This document shows, in pieces, positions 2,816 to 37,233 of a stretch of DNA of 37,561 nt (position 1 is the first letter of the stretch; the number at the start of each line of letters is the position of its first letter). This DNA is from a virus. The stretch lies in the IMG/VR virus record IMGVR_UViG_3300036944_000431, positions 1 through 37,561 of that record; one strand, 5' to 3'. The translations under genes were made by a program, and so were the position numbers. The notes under the pieces are model-generated. The model was not told where the DNA came from, searched no databases, and saw nothing but the letters and a program-made list of their open reading frames with translations.

Positions 2816-4982
2816 TTACGTCTTCCTCAGGCTGCGCAACAGGTGCGGGCAGTTGTTCCATTATGGGTTGTTCGGGTGGTGCCATTGGCTGTTCAGGGGC
2901 CATTGCAGGCGCTTCCATAGGCATTGCAGGCATTGCGTCTGGTAGCGGCGGCATATCGGCGTTCATGCTGTCCAACATACCCAGCACAATATCCTGCACC
3001 TGTTCGGCGGTTAGGCTTTCCTTGACCGTATCAAGGCGTTTTGTGTTCGCGTTGAAGGCGTCAACCTCTGCCTTGTATTCCTTGATGTCGAGTTCACGCT
3101 GTGCGGCGCTATCTTGGATGTTCTCCATGATCGTCGTCACTTGCGTAAGCTCCTGCGTCAGGGCTTGGATTTGCTGCTTGGCCGCTGCAAGTTCAGGCGT
3201 CATTTCGTCAGTCGCAAGAACCTTCGGATCAAGAATTTTCTTGAACCGGTCGGCCATTTCCTGCGCTCCTGGCCAATCCATGTTCTTAATGAACAAGTCG
3301 CCAGCAACCGACCACAGTTGCGGATTGCTTTGCAGGATGGTGGACATAGCCTCCAATGCCTCTTGGCGCTTAGTCATGTAACCGGGGCCGGTCGTGACCA
3401 TAACGTCATAGGTGCCGACAGTCGGGTTGTAGATTTTCTTGATCAACCCACCATTAGGATCGCGGACTTCCTTAACCGCTTCCTCTTGGTTCGGATCAAG
3501 TTCAACCATATCCACTTCGCCATCAAGCCCAACAATGCGGGCGATGCGCTGCGTGTCGTAAATCTTAGGGATCATATCAACAAGCTGGCGAGTGATATGC
3601 CGGATAGCCCGCGCAAGGTTGTCAACGTAATGATACGTGCCAACGTCGCCTTGACGTTCGCGCGCCAAGATAGCCTTGCCCGACTTTTCATTGCCAGCCA
3701 TACCAAGGCTTGCATCGTATTGGCCGGTCGTGCCCTTAATGTCGTCAGCCGCACCCATCTTGGCTTGGATCAATCCAGCCTGCGGCAGTGGCGGAGGCGC
3801 ACGGTGCGGCAGTGGCAGGGAATTACCCGCCATATCCGTTACGTCAGGGTTAACCTCAAGATATGGCCAGTTTGTGGTGTTGGCCGTCTTCCATTGCTGT
3901 TCGTAACCCTCGAACTGCCCGCCGTAACCGATGAACGGAGCCTTAGGCGCAAGGGCAAGCATCTCAGCTTCTTGGCTTACCCAGTAGTTATACATGCGCT
4001 GTGCGTCTTTGGCGTTGCGCACAAGGCCGCTGATGTAGATTTGCCCGTCGACCTCGAACTCATTGCCGACCACGCGAACGACAGGGATATACTTCCCGGC
4101 CCATTCGCGCTTTTCGAGCACCTCATAGCCGTTAGTCTTGATCCACATGACCTTTTTGCGGACAACCGAACGGCTGTTAACAGGCTTGCCAAACTGTTCC
4201 GCAAACGCTTTGTCCTCGCGGGTGCCAGCAAAAGCCGTCATGTTCCCAGCGAAAAGGTTCAGCGTTTCGGTCTTGTTTTCGTAATAGAAATATTCGGCAA
4301 TGCTGATTGTCTTGTTGTTCAACCAGCTGCTCAAACCTTCATCGCCGACGCCTTGCGCCATGATCGTGCTGATCGGCTGCGCGTCGGGAAAGTTCAGTTC
4401 GTATTCTTCAAGCGGTATATCCTCGCGGATAAAGCACCACTCAGCGTCAGCGCCACAAGGGTCTTGAATTGTCGGGTCCATATAGACCGAGAACGAGTTA
4501 CGAATACGCCCGATCTTCAAGTCCTGGTCGAAACTGTCATCGCGGCAGTATTCCGTCAGGATGCGAATATAGCCTTCGCCATAGGTCACCTGATTGTCGC
4601 AGGCGGTATCGTAAGCAACGTCAGCGTCGGAGATATACTCGATGTGCCGAACGATGCCGTCGAATATCTCAGCAACCGCCACATCGCCCTTGTCGTCGGC
4701 AGGGATGACCTTGCCCGATGGACGGTTTTGCCGCTGGTCGTTTGTGACCTGCAATACATGCTGCGGTAGCTTGTTGATGGTCAGGCAGGGCCGAGCGTTG
4801 ATTGTCTGGCCTTGCACTGATCCGCGCGTTGATAGCACATCAGCAGGCCATTGCCATTGGTTGTCGGGTGAGCCTGCACGAAAGCGCAGGTCGTCTAGCT
4901 CGTCTTCCCGACTATCGCTATACGCGCCCATCGCCATGGTGAGGCGGGCACGCATTGTGTTAAGCGTTTTGTCGTCACTCAC
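2802..4982 (-). CDS. Portal protein, P22 gp1-like
   Basis: At 726 aa this nearly equals the P22 portal (725 aa). It forms the ring at one capsid vertex through which DNA is packaged and ejected. N-terminal features such as WPADVLSTRG, TINKLPQHVLQVTNDQRQNR and VTYGEGYIRI are typical of the family. The C-terminal part is helical and coiled (about residues 590-670), like the P22 barrel, and ends in a low-complexity tail of Pro, Met, Ala and Glu (about 675-720). It follows the terminase genes, as in P22. Confidence 0.95.
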   Translation of the reverse strand: MSDDKTLNTMRARLTMAMGAYSDSREDELDDLRFRAGSPDNQWQWPADVLSTRGSVQGQTINARPCLTINKLPQHVLQVTNDQRQNRPSGKVIPADDKGDVAVAEIFDGIVRHIEYISDADVAYDTACDNQVTYGEGYIRILTEYCRDDSFDQDLKIGRIRNSFSVYMDPTIQDPCGADAEWCFIREDIPLEEYELNFPDAQPISTIMAQGVGDEGLSSWLNNKTISIAEYFYYENKTETLNLFAGNMTAFAGTREDKAFAEQFGKPVNSRSVVRKKVMWIKTNGYEVLEKREWAGKYIPVVRVVGNEFEVDGQIYISGLVRNAKDAQRMYNYWVSQEAEMLALAPKAPFIGYGGQFEGYEQQWKTANTTNWPYLEVNPDVTDMAGNSLPLPHRAPPPLPQAGLIQAKMGAADDIKGTTGQYDASLGMAGNEKSGKAILARERQGDVGTYHYVDNLARAIRHITRQLVDMIPKIYDTQRIARIVGLDGEVDMVELDPNQEEAVKEVRDPNGGLIKKIYNPTVGTYDVMVTTGPGYMTKRQEALEAMSTILQSNPQLWSVAGDLFIKNMDWPGAQEMADRFKKILDPKVLATDEMTPELAAAKQQIQALTQELTQVTTIMENIQDSAAQRELDIKEYKAEVDAFNANTKRLDTVKESLTAEQVQDIVLGMLDSMNADMPPLPDAMPAMPMEAPAMAPEQPMAPPEQPIMEQLPAPVAQPEEDVNGHL

Positions 4983-5064
4983 TAGCGCAAACCCTCGGTC
5001 CTACTGTCATCACGACGTTGGCGGACTACGTTAACACGCGATTTAGCATTATGCAAGGGTTGCT

Positions 5065-5160
5065 GCGGGCTGGCAGGATTCGAACCTGCGGGGGGACGTA
5101 TCTAGAAAGTCTTCCCTCTGCTTGCGACAGCGCCTTAAACCACTCAGCCACAGCGCCGCA
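5065..5160 (-). tRNA. Class II tRNA-like gene (Ser/Leu type, degenerate)
   Basis: The minus strand shows the D-arm GCTGAGTGGTTTAAGGC, a long variable region with GGGA/TCCC ends, and a perfect T-arm GCAGG-TTCGAAT-CCTGC. The acceptor pairs GCGG(C)GCTG with CAGCCCGC, leaving one bulged C at 5155. The anticodon stem is poor: CTG/CAG closes a TCGCAAG loop without the usual T33, so I do not assign an anticodon. No CCA is encoded. It fills most of the gap between portal and large terminase. It may be a diverged phage tRNA, a decaying one, or a captured fragment. Confidence 0.65.
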
Positions 5161-5181
5161 GCCTAAACGCCATAACACCAA

Positions 5182-6711
5182 CTACGCACCGAGCCAACTT
5201 GAATTAGCGCCGCGGCTATCAACAACGCGCGGGCGCTTAGGTGTTTCCGGTGATTGCTTAGATGGCCCTGCAAGCTGTGCAGCCGCACGCCCAATCAATG
5301 ACAGGTTGTCAACGTCATCATCGTATCGACCAGCGGGGAAGGCTACGCATTCGTCAATAAAGCAATCGCCGTCATGATCGTTGCGAATGAATATCCGGCC
5401 TTCACTCACCATCGCTTGTGACGACCGAGCGCGGATAACCTTATCAACCATCGACGGCAGCCACATTAAAGCGCACGACAAGCGCCTATCGCGCATCCTA
5501 CGTTGCAAAGCTGGCAAGATGGCCTTGTGTATTACCCCAGCTTCACCATACCATGCGCGCGGCCTATAACGGGCTATCAGATCACATTGCGCCTCTATCC
5601 ATTCATCAGAGCTTGTTTGACCGCCCCAGCCGTCAACCATGTAAACTTTGGCGGGAACGCTATTGTCGATACCCCAAATGCGCAAGCGGGTGTAATCGCC
5701 ACCGCCTTCACTAACCGCATAATCGCTTGTGCCGTAATAACGCAAGTTATCCGGTGCCTCGTCATAGCGTTGAAAGCTTTTGCGCAGGAAATACGAACCT
5801 TCATCTGGCGCAGGCTTTTGCTGATACAAACTATTCCATGTGCGAGGGTTAGCTTTAAACGGCTTCCAGTGGTCTAGGTTGAACCATTGCGGCCAAAGCG
5901 TTTCACCTATCGCACGACCTAGCGGATCATCTTCACGATCAGCAATGGCGGGCAGGCATATCACATGCCATATTCTGCCGTCACGTCCTTCAAACACACC
6001 GCTTTCGCCATTCCAATCCTCTGGCAAGATGCGCCCAGCCGGATCGTCTTGGTGCCAGCGGGTGAGGATCATGATTTGCGGCGCGCCAGGTATTAAACGG
6101 GAGCAAAAGTCATCAATGTAAGCATCCCAAGTCTTATTGCGGATCGTCTCACTTTCAGCCGCTTCACGTCCGCGAATAGGGTCGTCCAGAATACCAAGCG
6201 CAGCACGGTTGCCGGTCAAGCCCGACAGCAGGCCACCAGACATATATTCCGAGCCATTGCTTAGTGCCCATTCATCAGCCGCGCTCTGGTCGGTGCGCAG
6301 CGTGACTTGTGTTAGGTTCTCGAACGCCTTGGATTTGATAAGCTGCCTTGCGCGCCTTCCCTGCTTTTTAGCGATGTCGCTGGCATAGCTGGCAAGGATC
6401 ACATTGCGCCGAGGCTTTCGCGCCATAAACCACGGAACAAACACAACATCGACATAAGTGGACTTTGCAGAACCCGGAGGCATTAACACCATAAGGTTAG
6501 GCACGCTGCCATCCTCAATGCCTTGGCATTTTTCCAACAGCAAGGCATGATGGTCCGCCAAGCTATCCAACCGCATGATGCTAAAGTCGTCCTCGTCGTC
6601 ATCTTCAGAAACGGGAGCGCTTGGAATATCAATCATGCAAGCAAAGTCAGGCAGGCTACGCTTTGCCAGTTCACGCCTTGCCGCGATAACGTGGTCAGTC
6701 GTTAGGTTCAT
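5182..6711 (-). CDS. terL: Terminase large subunit
   Basis: This packaging motor ATPase and headful nuclease has 509 aa (P22 gp2: 499). The Walker A-type loop PPGSAKST lies at residues 78-85 and the Walker B LGILDDP at about 172-178. SYASDIAKKQGRR follows the ATPase strand as in TerL proteins. The C-terminal half carries the RNase H-like nuclease, with the acidic GTSDYAVSEGGGDYTRLRIW region. The ATG lies 17 nt inside the small-terminase gene, implying coupled synthesis. The tRNA-like gene and then the portal follow. Confidence 0.95.
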   Translation of the reverse strand: MNLTTDHVIAARRELAKRSLPDFACMIDIPSAPVSEDDDEDDFSIMRLDSLADHHALLLEKCQGIEDGSVPNLMVLMPPGSAKSTYVDVVFVPWFMARKPRRNVILASYASDIAKKQGRRARQLIKSKAFENLTQVTLRTDQSAADEWALSNGSEYMSGGLLSGLTGNRAALGILDDPIRGREAAESETIRNKTWDAYIDDFCSRLIPGAPQIMILTRWHQDDPAGRILPEDWNGESGVFEGRDGRIWHVICLPAIADREDDPLGRAIGETLWPQWFNLDHWKPFKANPRTWNSLYQQKPAPDEGSYFLRKSFQRYDEAPDNLRYYGTSDYAVSEGGGDYTRLRIWGIDNSVPAKVYMVDGWGGQTSSDEWIEAQCDLIARYRPRAWYGEAGVIHKAILPALQRRMRDRRLSCALMWLPSMVDKVIRARSSQAMVSEGRIFIRNDHDGDCFIDECVAFPAGRYDDDVDNLSLIGRAAAQLAGPSKQSPETPKRPRVVDSRGANSSWLGA

Positions 6712-14999: not shown

Positions 15000-15134
15000 C
15001 CCCTCCACCACCATATGCGCCAATTCCGTAACGCGGCGCACCTCGATGTCGAGCAAGTCGGCGGGGATGCCGTCCGGGTTATCCTTGACCAGCTGGGCGA
15101 GGCGTTCGGCTAGGTTTGTTAAATGGTCGGTCAT
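14988..15134 (-). CDS. Small acidic protein (hypothetical)
   Basis: This 48-aa protein begins MTDHLTNLAERLAQLVKDNP and ends ELAHMVVEGLTD. It is helical and acidic. The ATG overlaps the stop of the DnaA-like gene (ATGA), and the 3' end overlaps the convergent plus-strand gene by 12 nt. Function unknown. Confidence 0.6.
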   Translation of the reverse strand: MTDHLTNLAERLAQLVKDNPDGIPADLLDIEVRRVTELAHMVVEGLTD

Positions 15135-15703
15135 GCTGCAATCCTTTCAAGTATAGCTGCAACCTCTTGGCGCTGGCGTTCTTTGGTGCGCAATGCCTCA
15201 CTGCGAATAATGGCCACCATATCGCGGAACAGGCCATCCGTTTCGATTAGCTTGTGTGATTGCTGGCAACCATAAATCACCGTAGCATGATCGCGGCCAA
15301 AGGCGCGGGCAATGCCAGCGTATGAGTAATGGCCTTGTGCCAGATACCATATTGCCCACCGGATGCGAACGAGGTAGCGATTGCGTCGATGTGACTTGAT
15401 GTCTGCTGCACTTGAGCGCGTAACCATTGCAGTGGCGTTAATCAGGCCGGTTAATGCGTAAGGTGGAGCTGGGCGGATAATGTCAGGCACGGCGCGTTTT
15501 CGGCCATGATTGAATTTCACAATACGTTCGATATTGCGCCGGTTTGCTTCCTCTTTAGGAAGGGTGCATTCCATATGCCGCAGCGCAGTGACAATGCGGT
15601 GCATTGTTGTTCCGTAGTGATCTGCGATTTGCTGGCGTGTCATGCCTTGGTTTAGATATTTGTCGCGGATGTCAGGCCATGCGGCGCGGGGGATATTGTT
15701 CAT
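15131..15703 (-). CDS. Stand-alone DnaA domain IV-like DNA-binding protein
   Basis: This 190-aa protein has an N-terminal HTH (MTRQQIADHYGTTMHRIVTA, residues 21-40), a basic linker, and a C-terminal region with NRYLVRIRWAIWYLAQ then IARAFGRDHATVIYGCQQSH (131-150). That second stretch matches the DnaA box-binding signature with its GRDH-TV core. There is no AAA+ domain. It could bind DnaA boxes in host or phage DNA, either competing with DnaA or marking a phage origin. An in-frame extension to 15817 is rejected because a small membrane-peptide gene overlaps it with an ATGA junction. Confidence 0.85.
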   Translation of the reverse strand: MNNIPRAAWPDIRDKYLNQGMTRQQIADHYGTTMHRIVTALRHMECTLPKEEANRRNIERIVKFNHGRKRAVPDIIRPAPPYALTGLINATAMVTRSSAADIKSHRRNRYLVRIRWAIWYLAQGHYSYAGIARAFGRDHATVIYGCQQSHKLIETDGLFRDMVAIIRSEALRTKERQRQEVAAILERIAA

Positions 15704-15810
15704 TGGATGAGGCTCCAAACTGTTCCAATCACGGGGATCCAAAAGCACATAGACAGCGCCACGCCAAAGACGAGGGCGTTGCGCGCGCGGCGGGCTTGTT
15801 CGGGGGTCAT
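15700..15810 (-). CDS. Small single-pass membrane peptide
   Basis: This 36-aa peptide begins MTPEQARRARNALVFGVALS, and its hydrophobic stretch runs from about residue 13 to 34 with a basic N-terminal head, giving an N-in membrane orientation. Start and stop both overlap neighbours by ATGA, so it fits a coupled operon. Function unknown. Confidence 0.55.
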   Translation of the reverse strand: MTPEQARRARNALVFGVALSMCFWIPVIGTVWSLIQ

Positions 15811-15884
15811 TGTCCACTCTCCTGCACCTGATGCCATGCGTTGCGGATTGCCCAGAGCCATGCGGGGATGTACCAGGGTTTCAC
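15807..15884 (-). CDS. Trp-rich micro-peptide with GTG start
   Basis: A 25-aa frame begins (M)KPWYIPAWLWAIRNAW. The GTG overlaps the stop of the HTH gene and its stop overlaps the next ATG, so every junction in this operon is a 4-nt overlap. Four Trp residues suggest membrane association. Size makes it uncertain, but the two overlaps favour a real gene. Confidence 0.4.
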   Translation of the reverse strand: MKPWYIPAWLWAIRNAWHQVQESGQ

Positions 15885-22314: not shown

Positions 22315-24408
22315 CTAGGTAATTCGAACAATCTCGGTTTGCGCCTTGATCACGAACGACTGCCCCGCCGCGCAAATGCCGACATAATGCAGGAACAAAC
22401 TTGCACCCGCGCCCACGACAACCGTGTTTGTCTGGTCAATCGTGCCGGTGCCTGTCAGGTCGAATACCGTCGTTCCGGTAAGCCCGACGCCATCCGATGC
22501 GGCGCGGCAAATGATGCGCGTGGCATTGTTGTATTCGATCACAGACCGGACGCGGTAAGACAGCGCAATGGTTGGATCATTGCCCAGCGCTACCCATGCA
22601 CGGCCATTGGTTCCGCCTGCCCGTGTCGTAATGCGAATATCATCACCGCTTGCGCTTGGATCACCGGCAACAGTCGGATCGGTTGACGCGGTGAAGAACG
22701 GCAAAGCGCGCCGCCCAACGAACTTGTCAGCCAGCGTAATGCCACCGACAACCGTTGGCAGCGTCGTGCGGAAGTCCCAAACATTGGAAGCGGACGGCCC
22801 TGTCCAAGCGGTGTTATCGCGCGCCGATGCAAACAGGGTGGAAGCTTGAGCGTCGGTCAATTCGGACGCCCAAACCTGCACACGGTAAATCTCGCCAACG
22901 CGGTTGATGTTGTTGCCCGCGAAATTGGCCGAGTTGACATAGACCGGCAGTGATGTGCCAGCCCCGCCATTGGTACGGTTGCCGTATGCCGGTTGGTTTA
23001 GATCGACATTGTATTCCTTGACGACATGACCGTTCAGCCAGACACGCCATTTGCCCGTGCCGTTGTGCGTCACGACTACGTGGATTGCATCGCCCTGACG
23101 AACCAGAACGCCCGTGTTCATGTTGTAGTAGTTGATATTGGCGTTGGTGCCGGTCCGTGCCCGCGCAAGGTAATTGCTATGGATCACACGCAGCACACCG
23201 CCGCGCCAACCGTTCGCATCAGGATCAGTGGCAAACAGGTAAATGCCGCCGTTCATCGTGCCAGCAGCGCCTTGGTCTGCACCATCGCCAAACATCAGCA
23301 GCGGGTTCGACCATGACGAAAAATCACCAGCACCGGGCTTGCCGTAATATTCGTATGAGCAAGCGCCTGACATGGGTAAGCCGCTGGTCAAAGTGGCAAG
23401 GCCATAGGTGCGACCGGACTTGGCAGTGACCGGCTCAACAGGTTCTGGCACAATAGCTGCGCCTGCGTCATCAAGCGATAGCACGATGTAATCAACGCCA
23501 GTCGTGTTGTAGGATGTTGGGAGTGTCAAAGAGCCACCAGACAGGCTTACAGGAGCCACAGGGGCCGTGCCGTTGAAGCCGTCACCGCTCTGCCCGTCGA
23601 TCACGATTTGCGGCACCACAGCCCCGCCGCCGCTTGTCCGTGTGGCGTCCAGAACGAATGCGACCTTGCCGTGCCCTGTCAGAACGCGAGAGCCTGCACC
23701 GTTGCCGGTAATGCGTTCAACCTTTACGCCTTCGCCGTTGATGAACGACAGATATTCGATGCCTTCACCAAGGGCAGGCGGCGTGTTTTCGTTGACCCAA
23801 ACGGAATCGGAAAGCGTTACGCCCGCATCACGAATAGCGATTGCGCTGGTTAGCGGCCCTTCGCTGATTGCGCCGGTGGGATTGGCTGTCGCACCATCCG
23901 TTGCCCACACCGATGACCGCGCGCTATCTCGCTTGCCAATGACCAGCGCGCTCCGGCGTGTGGTGAAGTCAAGCAGGCGACCGGACAGCGCGTTGCCGAT
24001 GATCGAGACTTCTTCGACAGCATCGCCCCCATTGGCCCTGATAGCCGCGTACCGATAGACCTTGGCGCTTACCGAATAGGACGCTTCAACCGAAAACTTG
24101 GCTTCAAAGAACGGGAGCCACACCGGATCTGTAGCGTTCGGCCCGATGATGTGCGCCGATGGCGTTGCGTCCAAACGCTGCGACCGGCCATGCCATGCCG
24201 TGCGATTGCGCCAATATGGGGCTTGGTCAGCCGCCCAAACATAAACCATATCCGGCACGAACGGCAGTGTGATTTCCTGCTTTGCGCCAGTGCCTGTGAA
24301 TGTGCCCGTAGCGGTGCGCAGTGGTGCTACGGCAGGAGGTGGACTACCGCCGCCACCGCGATAAGCCATAGAAAGCGTCAGCGCGCTTGATAGGGACAGG
24401 CCAGCCAT
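22315..24408 (-). CDS. LamG/concanavalin-type virion fibre protein
   Basis: This 697-aa protein has a Gly/Pro linker (YRGGGGSPPPAVAP) after a short N-terminus, then beta-rich modules. About residues 345-545 resemble a LamG/concanavalin jelly-roll (SYEYYGKPG, VVVTHNGTGKWRVWLNGHVV, VGEIYRVQVWASELTDAQAS), which usually binds sugars. The C-terminus is another beta module. It is likely a receptor-binding or adhesin-like virion protein. ATG 24408 overlaps the lipoprotein stop. Its place after the lysis genes is unusual for a tail gene. Confidence 0.8.
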   Translation of the reverse strand: MAGLSLSSALTLSMAYRGGGGSPPPAVAPLRTATGTFTGTGAKQEITLPFVPDMVYVWAADQAPYWRNRTAWHGRSQRLDATPSAHIIGPNATDPVWLPFFEAKFSVEASYSVSAKVYRYAAIRANGGDAVEEVSIIGNALSGRLLDFTTRRSALVIGKRDSARSSVWATDGATANPTGAISEGPLTSAIAIRDAGVTLSDSVWVNENTPPALGEGIEYLSFINGEGVKVERITGNGAGSRVLTGHGKVAFVLDATRTSGGGAVVPQIVIDGQSGDGFNGTAPVAPVSLSGGSLTLPTSYNTTGVDYIVLSLDDAGAAIVPEPVEPVTAKSGRTYGLATLTSGLPMSGACSYEYYGKPGAGDFSSWSNPLLMFGDGADQGAAGTMNGGIYLFATDPDANGWRGGVLRVIHSNYLARARTGTNANINYYNMNTGVLVRQGDAIHVVVTHNGTGKWRVWLNGHVVKEYNVDLNQPAYGNRTNGGAGTSLPVYVNSANFAGNNINRVGEIYRVQVWASELTDAQASTLFASARDNTAWTGPSASNVWDFRTTLPTVVGGITLADKFVGRRALPFFTASTDPTVAGDPSASGDDIRITTRAGGTNGRAWVALGNDPTIALSYRVRSVIEYNNATRIICRAASDGVGLTGTTVFDLTGTGTIDQTNTVVVGAGASLFLHYVGICAAGQSFVIKAQTEIVRIT

Positions 24409-24674
24409 TACTTGCGCTCCATTTCGTCTACCCACGCCTTCACGCCAGCAACAGCGGCCTTGCATGACCCCCACGCCGACCGCAGGCCGAGGATGTATTC
24501 CAAAGTCATCACATCGCGTTGGTCCTGCATTCCGCGCGGTGGCAGATCAGGCGCGATAGGTTCGTCAGCGCATTGCAGGAGAGCGACAGGGGGCTTAGCC
24601 ACCGCTGGTCTTGCTTGTCCGCAGGAAGCAAGGGTGGCCGAAGCCACCCCCACCAAGATTGCGCGCCGGATCAT
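24408..24674 (-). CDS. Lipoprotein, candidate outer-membrane spanin (Rz1-like)
   Basis: This 88-aa protein has a signal peptide MIRRAILVGVASATLASCGQ with lipobox LASC (Cys18), then a Pro-containing periplasmic part with two more Cys. With the membrane-anchored 94-aa protein two genes upstream it may form a two-part spanin that fuses the membranes at lysis. Separate rather than nested genes are known in phages. ATGA overlap with the upstream gene. Confidence 0.65.
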   Translation of the reverse strand: MIRRAILVGVASATLASCGQARPAVAKPPVALLQCADEPIAPDLPPRGMQDQRDVMTLEYILGLRSAWGSCKAAVAGVKAWVDEMERK

Positions 24675-28810: not shown

Positions 28811-30652
28811 TTATTCCTGCTGATTTTCTTTACCATCACCGGCTGCTGCGCGCACCCCGACATTATCGTTTAGAGCACGCACTGGTTTATTGTTGTTAGC
28901 GAAGGCTGTCAGGGCAGTTGCGACGCGCTGCATGGCTACGCCATGTTGCCCGCTAGGAGCCTTGGCAAGCCCGATCAGCGCATTGCGCACCGGGGCGCTT
29001 TCATATGCCCTTGCAAGCCCGCCTGCGCCTAGTGCGGCAAGTGTGCCCTTAACTGCGCCTAGCGATGCAAAACCACCGCCGATCAGATAAGGCACAGACT
29101 GCGCGCCGGTCGTCGGGTTTGCATTGGCAATGCCCGCTTGGCGGGTTGCGTTAATCAACCGTGAAAAGCCTTCAACCGCCGCCGCGTCATTGCCTTGGAA
29201 TGTCACACCGATGTTTTTGCCGAGCCGTGAAACCTCGTTAACGAACCGTTCGGGGCTAACGACATTTGCGCCATCAGGCCCGATAGAACCAGCCTTTTCC
29301 ATTGCCCTGTGGAGCAATGCCGCGCGGGCCTTTGTCTGGCCAGCGGGGCTTAGGTTGCTAAACAGAAGGCGTGTTTCGCTAGGCTTGGCGCTAAACAACA
29401 TGGAAGCGACATTCTCAGGCGTTGCATCCGCTGTGCGCAACAAACGCTTAAGGCCGGAAACCTTCAATTCCCCCGCAAGGCTGGAAAGCTGCGCATTAGC
29501 TGAGCGCCATGCTCGATAGGCTTCGGTACCTTGGGTTGACTTGATGAAATAACCCATATCTTGCCGCAATGGATCATAGATCGCACGAATTGCCTTTTCG
29601 CCAACGTCCTTGATGTCGGCCATCGTGTCTGACTTGAACACGCTACCAAGTTCATCTTGGCGCATTGCTTCAAGCTGCTGTAGCGTCTTACCTTCAAAGC
29701 TAGGGCGAAGCGATTTAAGCACTTCCGCAGCCTTCAACGATGACGGCGTTGCGCGCGACGTTAGATCCGCAATTTGCCCGTCGATAGCGTCTAGCGTCTT
29801 GGAAACAGGCGCAAGGCCCTGCGCACGATTAATAACCGCAGACTTTTGCCGCGTCAGGGAAGACAGCGCCTTACCCCGTGTTGCAAGGAAGTCCTTAGCC
29901 ACAGCTTCGACAGCGCCAGGATTATCAGCGCCAAACTCAGCCGCAAAATCTGTGACCGCCTTGACCCGCTCGCCTGCCTGTGCAGATCGCGAACCACCTG
30001 TGCCCGCGAATGGGATTTTCTCACCCAGCCCGCGTAAGGCTTTGCCGACGATTGTTTTTGGTGGGCGAATGTCGCTAGTGAACACGCGAACGCCGCGCTT
30101 TTCACCTTCTTTCACAACTTCACGCAAGGCGTTTGGTGATGTCGCGCGGGGCGCTGTAGGGCGTGCGGGAGCCTTAGGTAGCATTGCATTAACGGGGCTA
30201 ACCATACCACCCATCAACTGTGCACCCATACGCGCCGCTTGTCCTGAACCGCTCTTCGGTGTGGGGGATAGCTTTTCAACCTCACTACCTATAGTCGGCC
30301 CACGGCGATCAGTTGCGGCAACACCTCTGTCAATAAAGTTTGCCGCACGATCTGCACCAACCGCACGTAAGCCACCACTCACAACACCGCCGACGCCGCG
30401 CCTAATTTGCCTATTGATAACATCGCCAGCATCAGCAGCCATATCAGGAATAGACGTTACGCCCTGCACAAGACCGGCAAGCGTATTAGCGCTTGCGTCG
30501 AGCATTTGTTGCCCAAAGCCTTTAGGCTTGGCAGGAGCCTTGGGCGCGCTTTTCGTCACGTGCGACTTAACCACACGATCCATCACCGCATCGGGCGTAT
30601 CGTCCGGAAATTCCAGAATGTCGCCATTGGGGAGTTGCGCCCGCTTGCTCAT
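28811..30652 (-). CDS. Ejection (DNA injection) protein
   Basis: This 613-aa protein has a short N-terminal domain (KRAQLPNGDILEFPDDTPDA, VMDRVVKSHV), a glycine- and Ala-rich middle, and long helical parts, as in podoviral ejection proteins that leave the virion with DNA and make a channel through the envelope. Hydrophobic stretches near residues 540-570 could enter membranes. It is the third of three consecutive ejection genes, corresponding to the P22 gp7-gp20-gp16 set. ATGA overlap with the upstream gene. Confidence 0.82.
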   Translation of the reverse strand: MSKRAQLPNGDILEFPDDTPDAVMDRVVKSHVTKSAPKAPAKPKGFGQQMLDASANTLAGLVQGVTSIPDMAADAGDVINRQIRRGVGGVVSGGLRAVGADRAANFIDRGVAATDRRGPTIGSEVEKLSPTPKSGSGQAARMGAQLMGGMVSPVNAMLPKAPARPTAPRATSPNALREVVKEGEKRGVRVFTSDIRPPKTIVGKALRGLGEKIPFAGTGGSRSAQAGERVKAVTDFAAEFGADNPGAVEAVAKDFLATRGKALSSLTRQKSAVINRAQGLAPVSKTLDAIDGQIADLTSRATPSSLKAAEVLKSLRPSFEGKTLQQLEAMRQDELGSVFKSDTMADIKDVGEKAIRAIYDPLRQDMGYFIKSTQGTEAYRAWRSANAQLSSLAGELKVSGLKRLLRTADATPENVASMLFSAKPSETRLLFSNLSPAGQTKARAALLHRAMEKAGSIGPDGANVVSPERFVNEVSRLGKNIGVTFQGNDAAAVEGFSRLINATRQAGIANANPTTGAQSVPYLIGGGFASLGAVKGTLAALGAGGLARAYESAPVRNALIGLAKAPSGQHGVAMQRVATALTAFANNNKPVRALNDNVGVRAAAGDGKENQQE

Positions 30653-32274
30653 TTGATGCGGTTCCCTTGCGCGTCATAGCGAATGACGTTGCCACCGGGA
30701 CTAGCGGCCCCACCCTTCATCCCGCGTTGCTTGTATGCCTGCAAATCCTTGATGACGCGGTTCAGGGATGAACGGAAACCGCTTTCGCTCATATTCGCAT
30801 CAAGCGCACCAATTGCAGCCGTCAACTTTTCGCCTTCAGCGTTCGACAGCGCGCCCATGCCCTTCATGCTCTGCACCATAGGCAAAAACACCTGCGCCTT
30901 AAGCGCGTTCAGTTCGGCGCGGAAGTCAGCGGCAGGCGAACCGGGCACAACCATGCCAGCAAGGTTGCCATCAAGCGGGTTAATTGAAGGAAGGCCAACG
31001 CCAGCATTAAAGCCGGGATGTTCAAGCAGCCGGTTAGCCGTGCCGATTGCACGGTCAAATGCATCAAGCGCACTCTGTGAGTAGGCAGGAGTTTCACCTT
31101 TATTAGCCGCAGCCGCCTTAGCTTGTGCAGCCGTAGGAGCAGGCTTCAACTGCCCGCCGCCACGGTTGCCCGTCTCGAACTCACGTTGCGCCGCTGCCAC
31201 GGCAGAAACCTTATCAGGCGGGATCGGTGCGTTAGGATCAATGCCCGCACGGCGCGCAACATAGGCCTTGTAATTTGCCACGCTGGCAGGGCTGTTTTCA
31301 GGCCCGACAGGCGCATACGTGTCAATAATCTTGCTGACCGTGTTAAGACCACGCCCGATATATCGCGAACGCAGAAGCGCCTCTTGTGCTGCAATCCCCT
31401 GCTCTGGTGTGGTGAAGGTAGCAAACCCGCCTTTAGCGCCTGCATATCCCGGCTGTGACCGCGCGAACGGCCCATCCTTGAGCGCGCCGGGGTTTGTCGC
31501 CAACGCAGGGGCAGCGCCAGAAGATATACCACCTTCAGTAACAGGCGTGGCCTGCCCCGTCCGCGTGTCAACGATGTTCCCGCCATTTGCACCCCATACG
31601 AATTGCGTCTGCGGTGGAAGCGAGCCTTGCGAACCGGGCACTACTGTAGCGCCGCCACCGCCATATTCAGGGATCGACAACACGCGAACACCATCACCGG
31701 TCGTTTGCGCTTGGAAGTGCTGTTTTAACTGCTGTTCGGCTGTCAGGTTCTTACGAAGAACATCCTGCTTCCATGCGGCAAAACCGGCAGGGTCTTTCGG
31801 CATATCAGCAAGGCCAGCCTGCAAGTGTGGTGCCATATCAGGAAACGCTTGCGCCAGCCGTTGCGCACGGCCTAGCGCGTCCTCAGGGCTTGCAGCATTG
31901 CCGAACTCGCTGCGTGACGCCTCAGAGAACTTCATGAGATGCTCGAGCTGCGCCGCGCTGGTTTTAGTCTGTTCGCCTTGCGCTTTGGAAAGCTCTTGCT
32001 GCACGCCGGGAATTGATGAGCCAAAGCCACCTTGCGCCAAAAGGCTGCTAAGTTTGTTTGCATCTATACGCCCCGTAGCTGGATCGAGCGCCTGCCCGTA
32101 TGCGTTATTCATCGCATCCGCTTCAGTCTGCTTGCGCAACATGGCGTTTTGCTCTTGCTGCTGCTTAAGCATAGCGTTCTGCCGGTCTTGCGCGTGTTCA
32201 CGGATTTGGATGTAATCCGTAAACGATGGCATATCCGGTGCGCGGGCTTGCAAGGCAATCATCTGGTTAGCCAT
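30649..32274 (-). CDS. Ejection protein with lytic-enzyme-like domain
   Basis: This 541-aa protein has an N-terminal Gln-rich coiled coil (about 20-60) and, near residues 261-350, NPGALKDGPFARSQPGYAGA, GGFATFTTPEQGIAAQEALL and NTVSKIIDTYAPVGPENSPA. I recognise this as a structural lysozyme-like domain in virion proteins, which opens the peptidoglycan during DNA entry. The C-terminus is helical. It starts within 1 nt of the upstream ejection gene stop. Confidence 0.85.
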   Translation of the reverse strand: MANQMIALQARAPDMPSFTDYIQIREHAQDRQNAMLKQQQEQNAMLRKQTEADAMNNAYGQALDPATGRIDANKLSSLLAQGGFGSSIPGVQQELSKAQGEQTKTSAAQLEHLMKFSEASRSEFGNAASPEDALGRAQRLAQAFPDMAPHLQAGLADMPKDPAGFAAWKQDVLRKNLTAEQQLKQHFQAQTTGDGVRVLSIPEYGGGGATVVPGSQGSLPPQTQFVWGANGGNIVDTRTGQATPVTEGGISSGAAPALATNPGALKDGPFARSQPGYAGAKGGFATFTTPEQGIAAQEALLRSRYIGRGLNTVSKIIDTYAPVGPENSPASVANYKAYVARRAGIDPNAPIPPDKVSAVAAAQREFETGNRGGGQLKPAPTAAQAKAAAANKGETPAYSQSALDAFDRAIGTANRLLEHPGFNAGVGLPSINPLDGNLAGMVVPGSPAADFRAELNALKAQVFLPMVQSMKGMGALSNAEGEKLTAAIGALDANMSESGFRSSLNRVIKDLQAYKQRGMKGGAASPGGNVIRYDAQGNRIK

Positions 32275-33029
32275 CAGAAAATTCCCGGATTAGAAGCGAT
32301 GGTGCTTGCAGCCGATGGGGTCAGTCTGTTGTAGACATTCCCGCCGCCGCCACTGTTATAAGCATAACCTTGCGCAAGTGAATTTCCAATGCCACCCAAA
32401 GCCGATGCCAACGCATTAGACGAGCCGACATAACCCGACGCCCTAGCCGCGCCAGCGTTCTGTATGCTGTCAGAAAGCCCTTGCCCCAACTGACCAGCCG
32501 CGTTTGTCAGTGTGTTAGCGCCTGTCTGCCCAGCGCCCATAAGCGATTGCAACGGGTTTAGCCGTGCGTTCCGCTCAACCTGATAGCGGTTAAATGCGTT
32601 GTTATATTCGTCTGAGGCTTGACCTTGGCTAAAGCGCTGGATGCCCTTAAGCATCGAACCTGACAACAGTCCGCCACGTGCAGCAGCCGACCGCTCCAAG
32701 GCCTTCATGCCCTCGTCTTGCCGGAACTGATAACCCGGATCAGCTTGGAATTGATCCATACCAAACGATTGTGCGGCGCTTCCATAACCCGCAGCGGTCT
32801 TATCACCCCCAATCCCTAGAAGCTGCAAAAGCTGGTTCTGTGCGGTAAGGCCCGCCTCACGGAAAGGCGCTTGAAGTTCAACTTGCTTGTTGAATATATC
32901 TTGCTGAACTTGTGCGCTACGATCAGCCGCCGCCGCTTGCGTCTTTGCGGCATTCTTCGCCCCGCTTGACGCGATAAGCGAACCGCCTATCGCTGCCGTT
33001 GCTCCGATTGCTGCTGCTACCGCCGACAT
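32274..33029 (-). CDS. DNA transfer/ejection protein, P22 gp7-like
   Basis: This 251-aa protein begins MSAVAAAIGATAAIGGSLIA, with a hydrophobic N-terminal helix, then AFREAGLTAQNQLL-type sequence (here LQAPFREAGLTAQNQLLQLL), DPGYQFRQDEGMKALERSAA and RGGLLSGSMLKGIQRFSQG. This pattern is very common in short-tailed phage DNA transfer proteins. It is one of the three ejected internal proteins. Two bases separate it from the cupin-SET gene upstream. Confidence 0.9.
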   Translation of the reverse strand: MSAVAAAIGATAAIGGSLIASSGAKNAAKTQAAAADRSAQVQQDIFNKQVELQAPFREAGLTAQNQLLQLLGIGGDKTAAGYGSAAQSFGMDQFQADPGYQFRQDEGMKALERSAAARGGLLSGSMLKGIQRFSQGQASDEYNNAFNRYQVERNARLNPLQSLMGAGQTGANTLTNAAGQLGQGLSDSIQNAGAARASGYVGSSNALASALGGIGNSLAQGYAYNSGGGGNVYNRLTPSAASTIASNPGIF

Positions 33030-33030
33030 T

Positions 33031-33813
33031 CTAGTGCACTCCTAACGCTTGGCGATAATCAACGGTTATTTCATCGCCGTTCATACCACCCTTGCATCCA
33101 TAAATCACGCTTTTTGCAAGCAGATAAATATCGCCGTCATTTTCAAACATTTCAGCGTTTGGCGTAGGTGAATGATTGGTGAAACGGCCTGCAATAGTCC
33201 GCTTGCCCCCTATCCGCGCAGCCGCGATAAATTCGCCCGGCTTGTAATCGCCCGTCGCAAACAATCCGCGACCATGAATGTCAGACGGCCCCGTCGTGAA
33301 CTTGTATTCACCAAACGGAAGCGAAACCATATCGCTTTCATCGGTCGAAATGCAGGCCACCTGCTGTTCCGTGAACCCGTATTCAGCGATAGCAAGGCGA
33401 AAATCTTTTCGCGCCGCCGTGTAGTCTGGTAAAAGGCGCTGCACACCAAGGAAGCCCGCGCTCTTCTCAAAAAGCTGGTCTTCAATCCTGCCAACGTCCG
33501 TTTCGTTCGTGGCGTAGATATTCTGCCAGCGCACCGTTTCGTGTATCTGTGCAATCTTGCGCCCTGGTTCCGCCACAAACGTCATGGGGGCCGTTAATTC
33601 CTCGCGCGTGCCATCCTCACGGATCAGCGTCAACCGACCTTCAAGCATCACGTTAAAGTGCGGTTCGCGGTGGTTGTGGCCGATAATATACGCCCCCGCA
33701 GGCATAACCACCTCACGGATATACACGCCCGGCCCGAAATGATGGCTAACAGGGCATTCAACCTGCTCCATCGTCAAGAAGGCGCTTTCCAGCAAGGCTA
33801 CGTCATTGCTCAA
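33031..33813 (-). CDS. Cupin-SET fusion protein in the tail module
   Basis: This 260-aa protein has residues 35-105 forming a cupin barrel with GHNHREPHFNVMLEGR (His46, His48, His52, Glu58: metal-type site). Residues 176-254 are a SET methyltransferase domain: SDIHGRGLFATGDYKPGEFI, then GRFTNHSPTPNAE (N213-H214, P218-N219) and GDEITVDY (246-253) with the final Tyr. SET proteins methylate lysine using SAM. The pre- and post-SET zinc parts are absent. ATGA overlap with the 111-aa tail gene puts it firmly in the virion operon. Target and virion presence are unknown. Confidence 0.88.
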   Translation of the reverse strand: MSNDVALLESAFLTMEQVECPVSHHFGPGVYIREVVMPAGAYIIGHNHREPHFNVMLEGRLTLIREDGTREELTAPMTFVAEPGRKIAQIHETVRWQNIYATNETDVGRIEDQLFEKSAGFLGVQRLLPDYTAARKDFRLAIAEYGFTEQQVACISTDESDMVSLPFGEYKFTTGPSDIHGRGLFATGDYKPGEFIAAARIGGKRTIAGRFTNHSPTPNAEMFENDGDIYLLAKSVIYGCKGGMNGDEITVDYRQALGVH

Positions 33814-34145
33814 GATACAGTCCTGCCCGATGCACGGATGTTGATTGACGAGGCCGTGCCTGCAATTGTGCTGATAAATGCGCCGACAGACAGATATTGG
33901 CCGACAAGCTCCGGGAATGTGTACGTCTCACTCGGCTGCAACGTCTTGGCTTTAACAATCAGATTGTCGCTGTCCGCCGTGTCCGATGCCGTGACCAGAT
34001 TGACAGACAACGTTGCCGCCGTGCCGGAATAATTGGTCGCCGTGAATTTGTCGATGATCGTCAGAACGCCAGTTGACGTATATTGCGTTGTCTGGCTGTT
34101 TTCAGCCGTCTTGGCGGGGATCAATACGGTGTTGATAACAGACAT
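33810..34145 (-). CDS. Small tail-associated protein (hypothetical)
   Basis: This 111-aa protein begins MSVINTVLIPAKTAENSQTT. It is a beta-rich sandwich-like sequence with Thr/Ser-rich strands (FPELVGQYLSVGAFISTIAG), common in podoviral tail regions between gp10-like and ejection genes. Probably a virion component. It overlaps its neighbours by 1 to 4 nt. Confidence 0.75.
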   Translation of the reverse strand: MSVINTVLIPAKTAENSQTTQYTSTGVLTIIDKFTATNYSGTAATLSVNLVTASDTADSDNLIVKAKTLQPSETYTFPELVGQYLSVGAFISTIAGTASSINIRASGRTVS

Positions 34146-34537
34146 TAGACAATCCCTGTGATGATACCGTTGATTACGGTAACGGTCTTTAGGTCAACGG
34201 TGGTGAATGTGCCACTTGCGCCCATAGGAGGCTCATAGCGCGGCGCGGTGTCCTGATAAGGTGACGCCTCGATAGAAGGCGGTAACACTACGTCAGCAAC
34301 CGCCACAGGCGCGCTAGGTGGCAACGCCTCGGTATATTGCGCCAATGCGCCTAAAGCAGCCTCAACGCTCTCAATGGGCACTACAGGGGAGCGTTGGATG
34401 TCATCCAGTGAGACAACCGACGTTCCCGATCCTGTCAGGTTGTAAAGAGACAAGAAAAACAGATACCACTCACGCGAAACCGCGCCCGTCCGAGGGTCGA
34501 GAAACGCAACGCGGGGAGGTGTGATGTTTGTAATCAT
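34145..34537 (-). CDS. Tail-associated protein (hypothetical)
   Basis: This 130-aa protein has ITNITPPRVAFLDPRTGAVS then REWYLFFLSLYNL. That LDPRTG-SREWY-FF stretch is familiar from phage tail or virion proteins. A Pro-rich middle and a short beta C-terminus (VDLKTVTVINGIITGIV) resemble the ends of fibre-attachment proteins. ATGA overlap with the gp10-like gene. Confidence 0.75.
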   Translation of the reverse strand: MITNITPPRVAFLDPRTGAVSREWYLFFLSLYNLTGSGTSVVSLDDIQRSPVVPIESVEAALGALAQYTEALPPSAPVAVADVVLPPSIEASPYQDTAPRYEPPMGASGTFTTVDLKTVTVINGIITGIV

Positions 34538-35967
34538 GACGCGGTGCCCGACACGACCAGTTCAGCGCCCATGATAGCAATTTTTACCGGGTCTGTACCT
34601 GAAATTTCGTAAACGCGGTCACGTAGCTTTAGCGTCGTCCCTAACCTGCGCCATATAACCCGCGTGCCAGTTTTGCCGATTGCGCCCATTGAACGGCTGT
34701 GTTCACTTGACCAAGTATGCCCGCCGTCATCCGACCAGCGTAGCACAACTTGTGGATCGCTGCCTTGTCCGGTGTTAAGCCCTACACCTGCCTGCACGTC
34801 GATCTGCAATGAATGGTTCACCGAACGCTTAAAATTTGTGGTTGGCAGTGCACGCCATGATCGAAGCCAGCGTTGTTCGTTTCCATTGTCAGAATACGTC
34901 AGTGGGTCCAGCGCGTAGATGTTGCCGTTTTCATAATCACCAACAATCGTGGTGCCACCAAAAGCGCACTGGTTATCCGCACGATGCCGCTCAAACGCTG
35001 TGCCACCCCAGTACGCCCGTTCATGCCAAGCGCCCGTAGCAGCGTCGAAAACCCACGACACACCGGCTTGCGGGAAGTTCAACTGATAGAAGCTATGCCC
35101 GTCCTGCTGATAGGTAAATGCCGTCGTTGCCGACAAGTCGCCATATTGCTGGATTTGCCATTCTACCGCATGGGTCGAGATACGCTGCCCGATGTAGCCC
35201 GCCGCACGATAAACCATACCGAAGCCGCGTGCGTCCTTGCCCAGCCAATAGATTTGGTTGTCCATCTTGGCGACAGAATACGGGGCCGCGCATCCAATCT
35301 CGTTAAACGCGCCTTGAATGCGTGTTAGTGGAAAGTCAGCCTGCCCGCTGTTATAGAACACTTCCGTGCTGGTCGTGCCAAAAGCCCACACTTCACGGTG
35401 GTCAACAATGATTGCGATCAATTGATCTGGCGAACCCTCCGCGCTGGCAAAATCCAGCGGGTCAACCGACGTTCCTTCCAGCAGGCTCGTCACCCATATC
35501 CTTTGGCTGTTAGGCTCATTGAACACAAAATAGCCGTCGATATAACCAACCTTGACAGCGCCAGCAAAATCAGGGTCGGTGATCTGCGCAAACACGCCCG
35601 TGGTTTCGTTGTAAATATAGCCGTCAGGATTGCAGGCAAAGAACAATTGCGTGCCATTGTCAGCAATAGACACAGGGCCGGTGCCGGTGACCGTTCCGAT
35701 TAAGGTAGGCGTGCCGGTTGCTGTCGTCAGCCTGTAGACGCCGCTGCCAGACACCACATAGAATGCCGTACCTGTGGTATTCGCCCACGAGCCGCGAATA
35801 GGGTCTGCGCTGATAGCCTGAAGCAACCGCAAACCCGGCGCACGTTGCAGCCATGCCGCTTCTTTGCCACCTTCTGGGATGACTTCCGGGAATAGGTTAA
35901 CCATCCGCGCGTCAGCCGCGTTAGGACTGCGTGCTTGGTAGGATGATCCTAATATCGGACTCTTCAT
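34534..35967 (-). CDS. Packaged DNA stabilization protein, P22 gp10-like
   Basis: This 477-aa protein (P22 gp10: 472) begins MKSPILGSSYQARSPNAADA then RMVNLFPEV, the family hallmark. Beta-propeller-like repeats follow. In P22, gp10 closes the portal channel below gp4 and links to gp26 and the tailspikes. The HNH gene sits upstream in the gap between this gene and the gp4-like gene. Its own RBS (AAAGG) precedes ATG 35967. Confidence 0.93.
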   Translation of the reverse strand: MKSPILGSSYQARSPNAADARMVNLFPEVIPEGGKEAAWLQRAPGLRLLQAISADPIRGSWANTTGTAFYVVSGSGVYRLTTATGTPTLIGTVTGTGPVSIADNGTQLFFACNPDGYIYNETTGVFAQITDPDFAGAVKVGYIDGYFVFNEPNSQRIWVTSLLEGTSVDPLDFASAEGSPDQLIAIIVDHREVWAFGTTSTEVFYNSGQADFPLTRIQGAFNEIGCAAPYSVAKMDNQIYWLGKDARGFGMVYRAAGYIGQRISTHAVEWQIQQYGDLSATTAFTYQQDGHSFYQLNFPQAGVSWVFDAATGAWHERAYWGGTAFERHRADNQCAFGGTTIVGDYENGNIYALDPLTYSDNGNEQRWLRSWRALPTTNFKRSVNHSLQIDVQAGVGLNTGQGSDPQVVLRWSDDGGHTWSSEHSRSMGAIGKTGTRVIWRRLGTTLKLRDRVYEISGTDPVKIAIMGAELVVSGTAS

Positions 35968-36519: not shown

Positions 36520-37233
36520 TTACCCATTGGCATTACTATACACGTTGTAACGCCCCGGTTGTCCCAAAATAGCATAAGGCATCGCCATTACATCAAGTGG
36601 GCTATTCTGGCGTTTCAGGTTACGCTTGGACGCAAGGGCAATGCGAACAACCGTTGGTGAGGGCTCCATGCCAAATTCAGGCGCAAGTTCGACCGCCAAG
36701 CTATAGCGGAATGCGCGCATATAGCCGGGCGGGAACACCAAATCTGTTGCCAGCGTTGCGGGCTGCGTCAATTCATCGACAGAGATAAAATGCCATTCCA
36801 GCGCCCTTGTCGGCACAGGATAAACAAACATCTCAATGTCGGGCATGTTCATGTTCAGCCACAGCAATTGCGGGAACGTGCTGGTTACCGTCTTGAGCGC
36901 AATGGCGTCATATTGCTGCTGATTGATAATCTTGATGCCGTAGCTAATGCCTGTGCCTGCATCGCGGAAATAGGTGCTATCATCCACAGCAACAGGGCGA
37001 TTGCCAACAAAGTCGCCACTAGGGCCTAGTGTGCGGCTAATCTGTCCGGCGGGCCATGTGAACACCTGATCCTGTGTTGCAAACACTGCCAATCGTTCGG
37101 TTGACCAGCTATCAAGCATTTGGTTCATCGCTACAAGCGCGTCGTTTGACGTTTCGCTTGAAGGCGTTTCACCCTCGGCCAATACGCCGATAAGCCGCAA
37201 TGAACTGTTGATGAGGTCGCCAGCGGTGGTCAT
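36520..37233 (-). CDS. Head-tail adaptor, P22 gp4-like
   Basis: This 237-aa protein has TTAGDLINSSLRLIGVLAEG, DALVAMNQMLDSWSTERLAV and PPGYMRAFRYSLAVELAPEF, the signature of P22 tail accessory factor gp4. It binds under the portal and starts tail assembly. P22 gp4 is shorter (166 aa). The gp4-HNH-gp10 order otherwise follows P22. ATGA overlap with the upstream 63-aa gene. Confidence 0.92.
   Translation of the reverse strand: MTTAGDLINSSLRLIGVLAEGETPSSETSNDALVAMNQMLDSWSTERLAVFATQDQVFTWPAGQISRTLGPSGDFVGNRPVAVDDSTYFRDAGTGISYGIKIINQQQYDAIALKTVTSTFPQLLWLNMNMPDIEMFVYPVPTRALEWHFISVDELTQPATLATDLVFPPGYMRAFRYSLAVELAPEFGMEPSPTVVRIALASKRNLKRQNSPLDVMAMPYAILGQPGRYNVYSNANG

Follow-up and report, generated by a model that had tools for sequence, protein, structure and literature searches.

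Results

Locus and gene content

The window, i.e. the whole stretch of 37,561 bases analyzed here, is a virus record. Its minus strand encodes homologues of TerS, TerL, portal, scaffold and coat proteins as well as an operon comprising, in this order, homologues of gp4 and gp10, two small genes, a gene for a protein with a cupin and a SET domain (hereafter cupin-SET), and homologues of gp7, gp20 and gp16 (Table 1). This gene order is that of P22, with cupin-SET standing where P22 has gene 14. The genes from TerS to coat run across the ends of the record to the gp4-like gene and onward, provided that it is circular or circularly permuted. An earlier note on this DNA had placed the gene inside an ejection operon, and the homologues around it in this P22-like podovirus bear this out.

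The cupin-SET reading frame is open on the minus strand only, the plus strand in that frame being interrupted by stop codons. Its start codon overlaps, in the letters TTGA, the stop codon of the gene before it, and its own stop is immediately followed by the gp7-like ejection gene, which starts at 33029. Weak Pfam matches to Enterotoxin_a in gp7 (E = 0.086) and to cNMP_binding (0.029) lay below the cut-off and were disregarded. Elsewhere in the window, ARAGORN called a tRNA-Cys (gca) between portal and TerL (5065-5157, minus strand), which did not reach the Rfam gathering threshold; a 719-aa open reading frame (22315-24474, minus strand) had no PHROG or Pfam match; and a 228-aa protein (15131-15817, minus strand) carries the C-terminal helix-turn-helix of DnaA (Bac_DnaA_C, E = 4e-13), which is notable for a phage.

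Table 1. Genes of the ejection operon and parts of the cupin-SET gene, in window coordinates.
Feature	Position	Strand	Basis or remark
gp4-like tail accessory / head-tail adaptor	36520..37233	-	phrog_637, phrog_12985, weak Pfam P22_Tail-4
gp10-like head closure Hc3	34534..35967	-	phrog_578
130-aa gene, no function assigned	34145..34537	-	ORF list, Pfam and PHROG searches, locus comparison
111-aa gene overlapping the cupin-SET start	33810..34145	-	often conserved just upstream of cupin-SET
cupin-SET gene	33031..33813	-	260 aa; TTG start, TAG stop; full-length phrog_34170 match, 264.8 bits
Cupin (RmlC-like jelly roll), residues ~15-104	33502..33771	-	phrog_12032, phrog_24280; Foldseek to cupins; BFVD cupin-only phage proteins
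H46-x-H48-x3-H52, cupin motif-1 positions	33658..33678	-	homologue table
Helical linker, residues ~107-157	33343..33495	-	AF2 secondary structure
Minimal SET domain, residues ~166-256	33046..33318	-	Pfam SET, PDB profile search, Foldseek to MLL1 SET
Predicted SAM-binding GxG (G181, G183)	33265..33273	-	invariant, 49 homologues
NHS catalytic motif (N213, H214)	33169..33177	-	homologue table
E248-I-T-V-D-Y253 motif	33055..33072	-	homologue table
gp7-like DNA ejection protein, directly downstream of cupin-SET	32274..33029	-	phrog_598
gp20-like ejection protein	30649..32274	-	phrog_2534
gp16-like ejection / DNA transfer protein	28811..30652	-	phrog_770

The protein is a fusion of a cupin and a SET domain

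The fusion had been proposed in the earlier note from short motifs, and the residues quoted there are correct in identity and numbering: H46, H48, H52 and E58 in the N-terminal half, and HGRGLFA (180-186), NHS-x2-PN (213-219) and GDEITVDY (246-253) in the C-terminal half. The Pfam SET model matched the window protein above its cut-off (24.3 versus 22.4 bits) and 35 of 38 diverse homologues at E≤0.01. A family profile built from the 38 sequences retrieved MLL1 and other SET domains from among solved structures at E = 2.6e-7, and vSET at 7e-5. Among 200,000 shuffled versions of the protein, none had the three motifs in order. The AlphaFold (AF2) model was of high confidence (pLDDT 89, pTM 0.86). 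With this model, Foldseek matched the N-terminal half to solved cupins (e.g. the metal cupin TM1459) and to cupin-only phage proteins in BFVD, and the C-terminal half to MLL1-type SET domains; for MLL1 SET, the probability was 1.00 with approximately 25% identity over approximately 122 columns, at a modest TM-score by target of 0.36-0.50. The C-terminal part is thus predicted to fold as SET and not as something else. Together, these data show that the open reading frame is real and that its product is a genuine cupin-SET fusion. The protein had no match among the PADLOC-DB models, and its identification as a known anti-phage defence protein was rejected for that reason.

The family had previously been catalogued, without function, as PHROG 34170, which the window protein matches over its full length and which has the same cupin-linker-SET architecture. 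Pseudoalteromonas phage PH1 protein ANY29560.1 matches this PHROG at 517 bits, but lacks the glycine-rich GCxGG loop that precedes the E-x-T-x-DY motif. One public record names a homologue after a PBCV-1-like histone methyltransferase, and BFVD holds a matching 263-aa phage 'SET domain containing protein'. The statement that no function had been described for this combination in a phage therefore stands as far as papers are concerned, since our literature search found none describing a phage cupin-SET, but has to be qualified in view of these database entries. A SET open reading frame in an unrelated myophage has been mentioned (PMC9025141).

The SET half is minimal but retains its catalytic residues

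The phage SET shares the GxG, NHSxxPN and E-x-T-x-DY motifs and the fold with MLL/KMT2 SET domains and with PBCV-1 vSET (1n3j, A612L). It differs from them in that it has no post-SET region, is fused to a cupin, and occurs in a bacterial phage, i.e. without histones. It also differs in the spacing of its motifs: GxG and NH lie 32 residues apart in 96/96 sequences with readable motifs, compared to approximately 66 in MLL1 as taken off an alignment, indicating that SET-I is almost absent. This insert is accordingly far from normal length throughout the family (approximately 8 profile positions versus approximately 43 in MLL1). The domain also lacks the Y-x-G stretch that usually follows the first strands. 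SET-I is a variable, non-defining part of SET domains that, in known enzymes, determines the shape of the substrate groove. Its shortness therefore marks a SET variant rather than an exclusion from the class, and the substrate pocket may be incomplete or finished by another chain.

These reductions, together with the loss of SET in some relatives (see L104 below), would fit a catalytically dead domain that extends the cupin in a structural or peptide-binding role. We consider this improbable. The GxG glycines and E248 were invariant in 49/49 non-redundant homologues, and among those readable at the respective position N213 was found in 48/48, H214 in 47/48 and Y253 in 48/48; the loss of the NH and Y residues in relatives, named in the earlier note as grounds for abandoning the assignment, was not seen. 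The SET part evolves under strong purifying selection (dN/dS of approximately 0.08; below 1 in 128/128 pairs). A mere scaffold would be expected to drop the NH/Y set in some lineages, while here the entire set is essentially invariant even in distant members, which makes a loss of catalysis unlikely. Judged by its sequence, this is a SET domain reduced to a minimum whose catalytic residues are intact, and probably an active enzyme.

The cupin half probably lacks a metal centre

In the canonical cupin motif 1, residues are spaced as G-x5-H-x-H-x3-(E/H)-x6-G. This spacing falls on G40, H46, H48, H52 and G59 of the window protein, with a His at the Glu position, so that E58 is placed at a non-ligand position; it is Glu in just 9/49 homologues. 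Of the four residues read in the earlier note as a metal motif, the three histidines are thus correctly spaced and the glutamate does not belong. H46 (46/49) and H52 (47/49) are conserved in the SET-fused forms, whereas position 48 is His in 20/49 and Gln in 28/49. The His of motif 2 is absent, its position 87 being Ile in the window protein, and cupin-only relatives mostly carry Lys at position 46. A complete metal triad or tetrad, composed of the motif-1 HxH...E/H and the motif-2 His, is consequently lacking, and these substitutions make a conserved metal centre unlikely.

The same data bear on the proposal that the cupin is a metal-dependent oxygenase working with or against SET in a methylation/demethylation pair. 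The fold is akin to that of TM1459 and other metal cupins, and two of the histidines are retained; no 2-His-1-carboxylate triad can, however, be assembled from this incomplete and inconsistently conserved ligand set, and we rejected the metal-enzyme or demethylase-like half as very improbable. The domain instead corresponds to an ordinary podovirus cupin: it hits PHROGs (phrog_12032, phrog_24280) that go by the names short tail fiber and tail fiber adhesin, and GenBank labels its relatives as short tail fiber, PHA00672 or RmlC-like. In our literature search, we found no validation of the 'short tail fiber' annotation, and for phiAP1 at least the tail-fiber name is without experimental validation (PMC8703784).

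The cupin occupies a fixed genomic slot and the SET half is an accessory

The podovirus cupins of PHROG 12032/24280 and PHA00672 share with cupin-SET both the homologous N-terminal domain and the position before the ejection proteins, but have neither linker nor SET. These cupin-only versions hold the slot in P22-like and T7-like phages alike, between the genes for tail tube or head closure and that for the first ejection protein. Most cupin-bearing loci are flanked by gp10 and gp7 homologues. In 93/93 loci checked, nearly all cupin-SET and a few cupin-only, the next gene starts -32 to +4 nt from the stop codon. One exception to the position is Alteromonas phage H4/4, in which the cupin lies ahead of the connector genes. 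P22 gene 14 (PF11039) and T7 gene 13 (PF11090) likewise lie directly before the first ejection protein; no sequence relation of cupin-SET to either product was detected. In every homologue examined, SET was fused to the same structural cupin at the same junction with the ejection genes.

In the cupin tree, which contains long branches, the SET label requires three changes, at least two of them forced by starred branches. SET was thus gained or lost at least two to three times and represents a gained-or-lost accessory; the tree reveals the changes, not their direction. A single ancestral fusion without later change was rejected, as the PH1 cupin groups with cupin-only relatives and a cupin-only member, locus L104, falls inside the SET clade. 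In L104 (8959-9399), an apparent case of SET loss, the cupin lies between a 1005-aa tail-fiber-like open reading frame and a gp7-like gene. A scan for relatives of a Vibrio cupin-only protein returned none.

The family comprises 331 matching stretches in IMG/VR and is represented in culture by Rhodoferax phage P26218 and Pseudoalteromonas phage PH1. Some public annotations at these loci appear faulty. In MW202557.1 (L036), the cupin-SET gene (4413-5207) is absent from the annotation and a reverse-strand open reading frame is annotated as 'contryphan-vn-tryptophan' just upstream. The gp16-position protein is annotated as putative TerL in two loci (L032, 11159-12997; L031, 10938-12773), probably wrongly, as L032 has a terminase large subunit annotated elsewhere.

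Discussion

Building on the established domains, folds, conserved catalytic residues, purifying selection and fixed genomic position, we tentatively propose, at a probability of roughly 0.45, that cupin-SET is a bifunctional morphogenesis factor in which an assembly cupin is joined to an active minimal SET that methylates a nearby protein, with a virion or ejection protein as the likeliest target. The cupin would be a non-catalytic virion-assembly module in the slot of P22 gp14 and T7 gp13, needed at the step of loading the ejection proteins or completing the connector. The SET half would bind SAM and methylate a lysine (or N-terminal amine) of a protein that the cupin holds close. This would presumably be one of the virion or ejection proteins, modified as particles are assembled inside the infected cell. 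This division of labor is drawn by analogy with T7 gp13, for which a role in virion morphogenesis has been suggested (PMC6775973). There is precedent for an enzyme fold at this position, as SIO1 pc40, a GNAT-domain protein, has been equated with T7 gp13 (PMC6775973). Methylation does not appear to be generally required for this assembly step, since many relatives in the same slot are without SET. The neighbouring gp7 was rejected as an obvious target because none of its lysines is consistently conserved across SET-bearing phages (best 57%); K109 is present in 42% of these and in 0% of cupin-only phages. Our literature search turned up no virion proteomics for this family.

Two other readings retain an active SET but direct it at the host. 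In the first, the protein is packaged in or near the virion and ejected with gp7, gp20 and gp16, whereupon SET methylates a host protein early in infection (e.g. RNA polymerase, a ribosomal or a nucleoid protein). Translational coupling to the ejection-protein genes, the intact active site and a separately folded domain on a linker, the architecture expected of a cargo, all fit with it. Cupin-only relatives indicate, however, that the core role of the slot needs no effector, the best-known slot occupant, T7 gp13, is tied to morphogenesis (PMC6775973), and no data point to a host target; overall we regard an ejected effector as unlikely.

In the second, SET is made late and acts on a cytoplasmic host protein, with its place in the ejection operon serving late expression only. 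SET enzymes use diverse non-histone substrates, and a removable accessory would suit such a role. We hold this to be slightly less probable still, as the same cupin fusion and the same junction recur in every homologue examined; it is this constancy that favors a local target.

A broader idea, which we regard as possible though doubtful, is that podoviruses keep a protein-modification slot before the ejection proteins, where interchangeable enzymes, GNAT-like in some T7-like phages and SET on a cupin here, modify virion or ejection proteins in assembly. The AF2 model of P22 gp14 (pLDDT 45) was too poor for judging a GNAT fold. If such a slot exists, post-translational methylation would belong to the process by which the ejection apparatus is built or fired.

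Lysine methyltransferases of the SET type are known above all for their action on histones, and no paper that we found describes one in a phage morphogenesis module. The evidence suggests that short-tailed phages with cupin-SET may methylate some protein as their particles are built or delivered. As a conserved and widespread family with an intact active site, cupin-SET provides a directly testable case of a methyltransferase that phages may use on their own virion or ejection proteins, or may deliver, and the cultured members P26218 and PH1 make such testing practical. The finding also directs attention to a slot of poorly understood function, that of P22 gene 14 and T7 gene 13.
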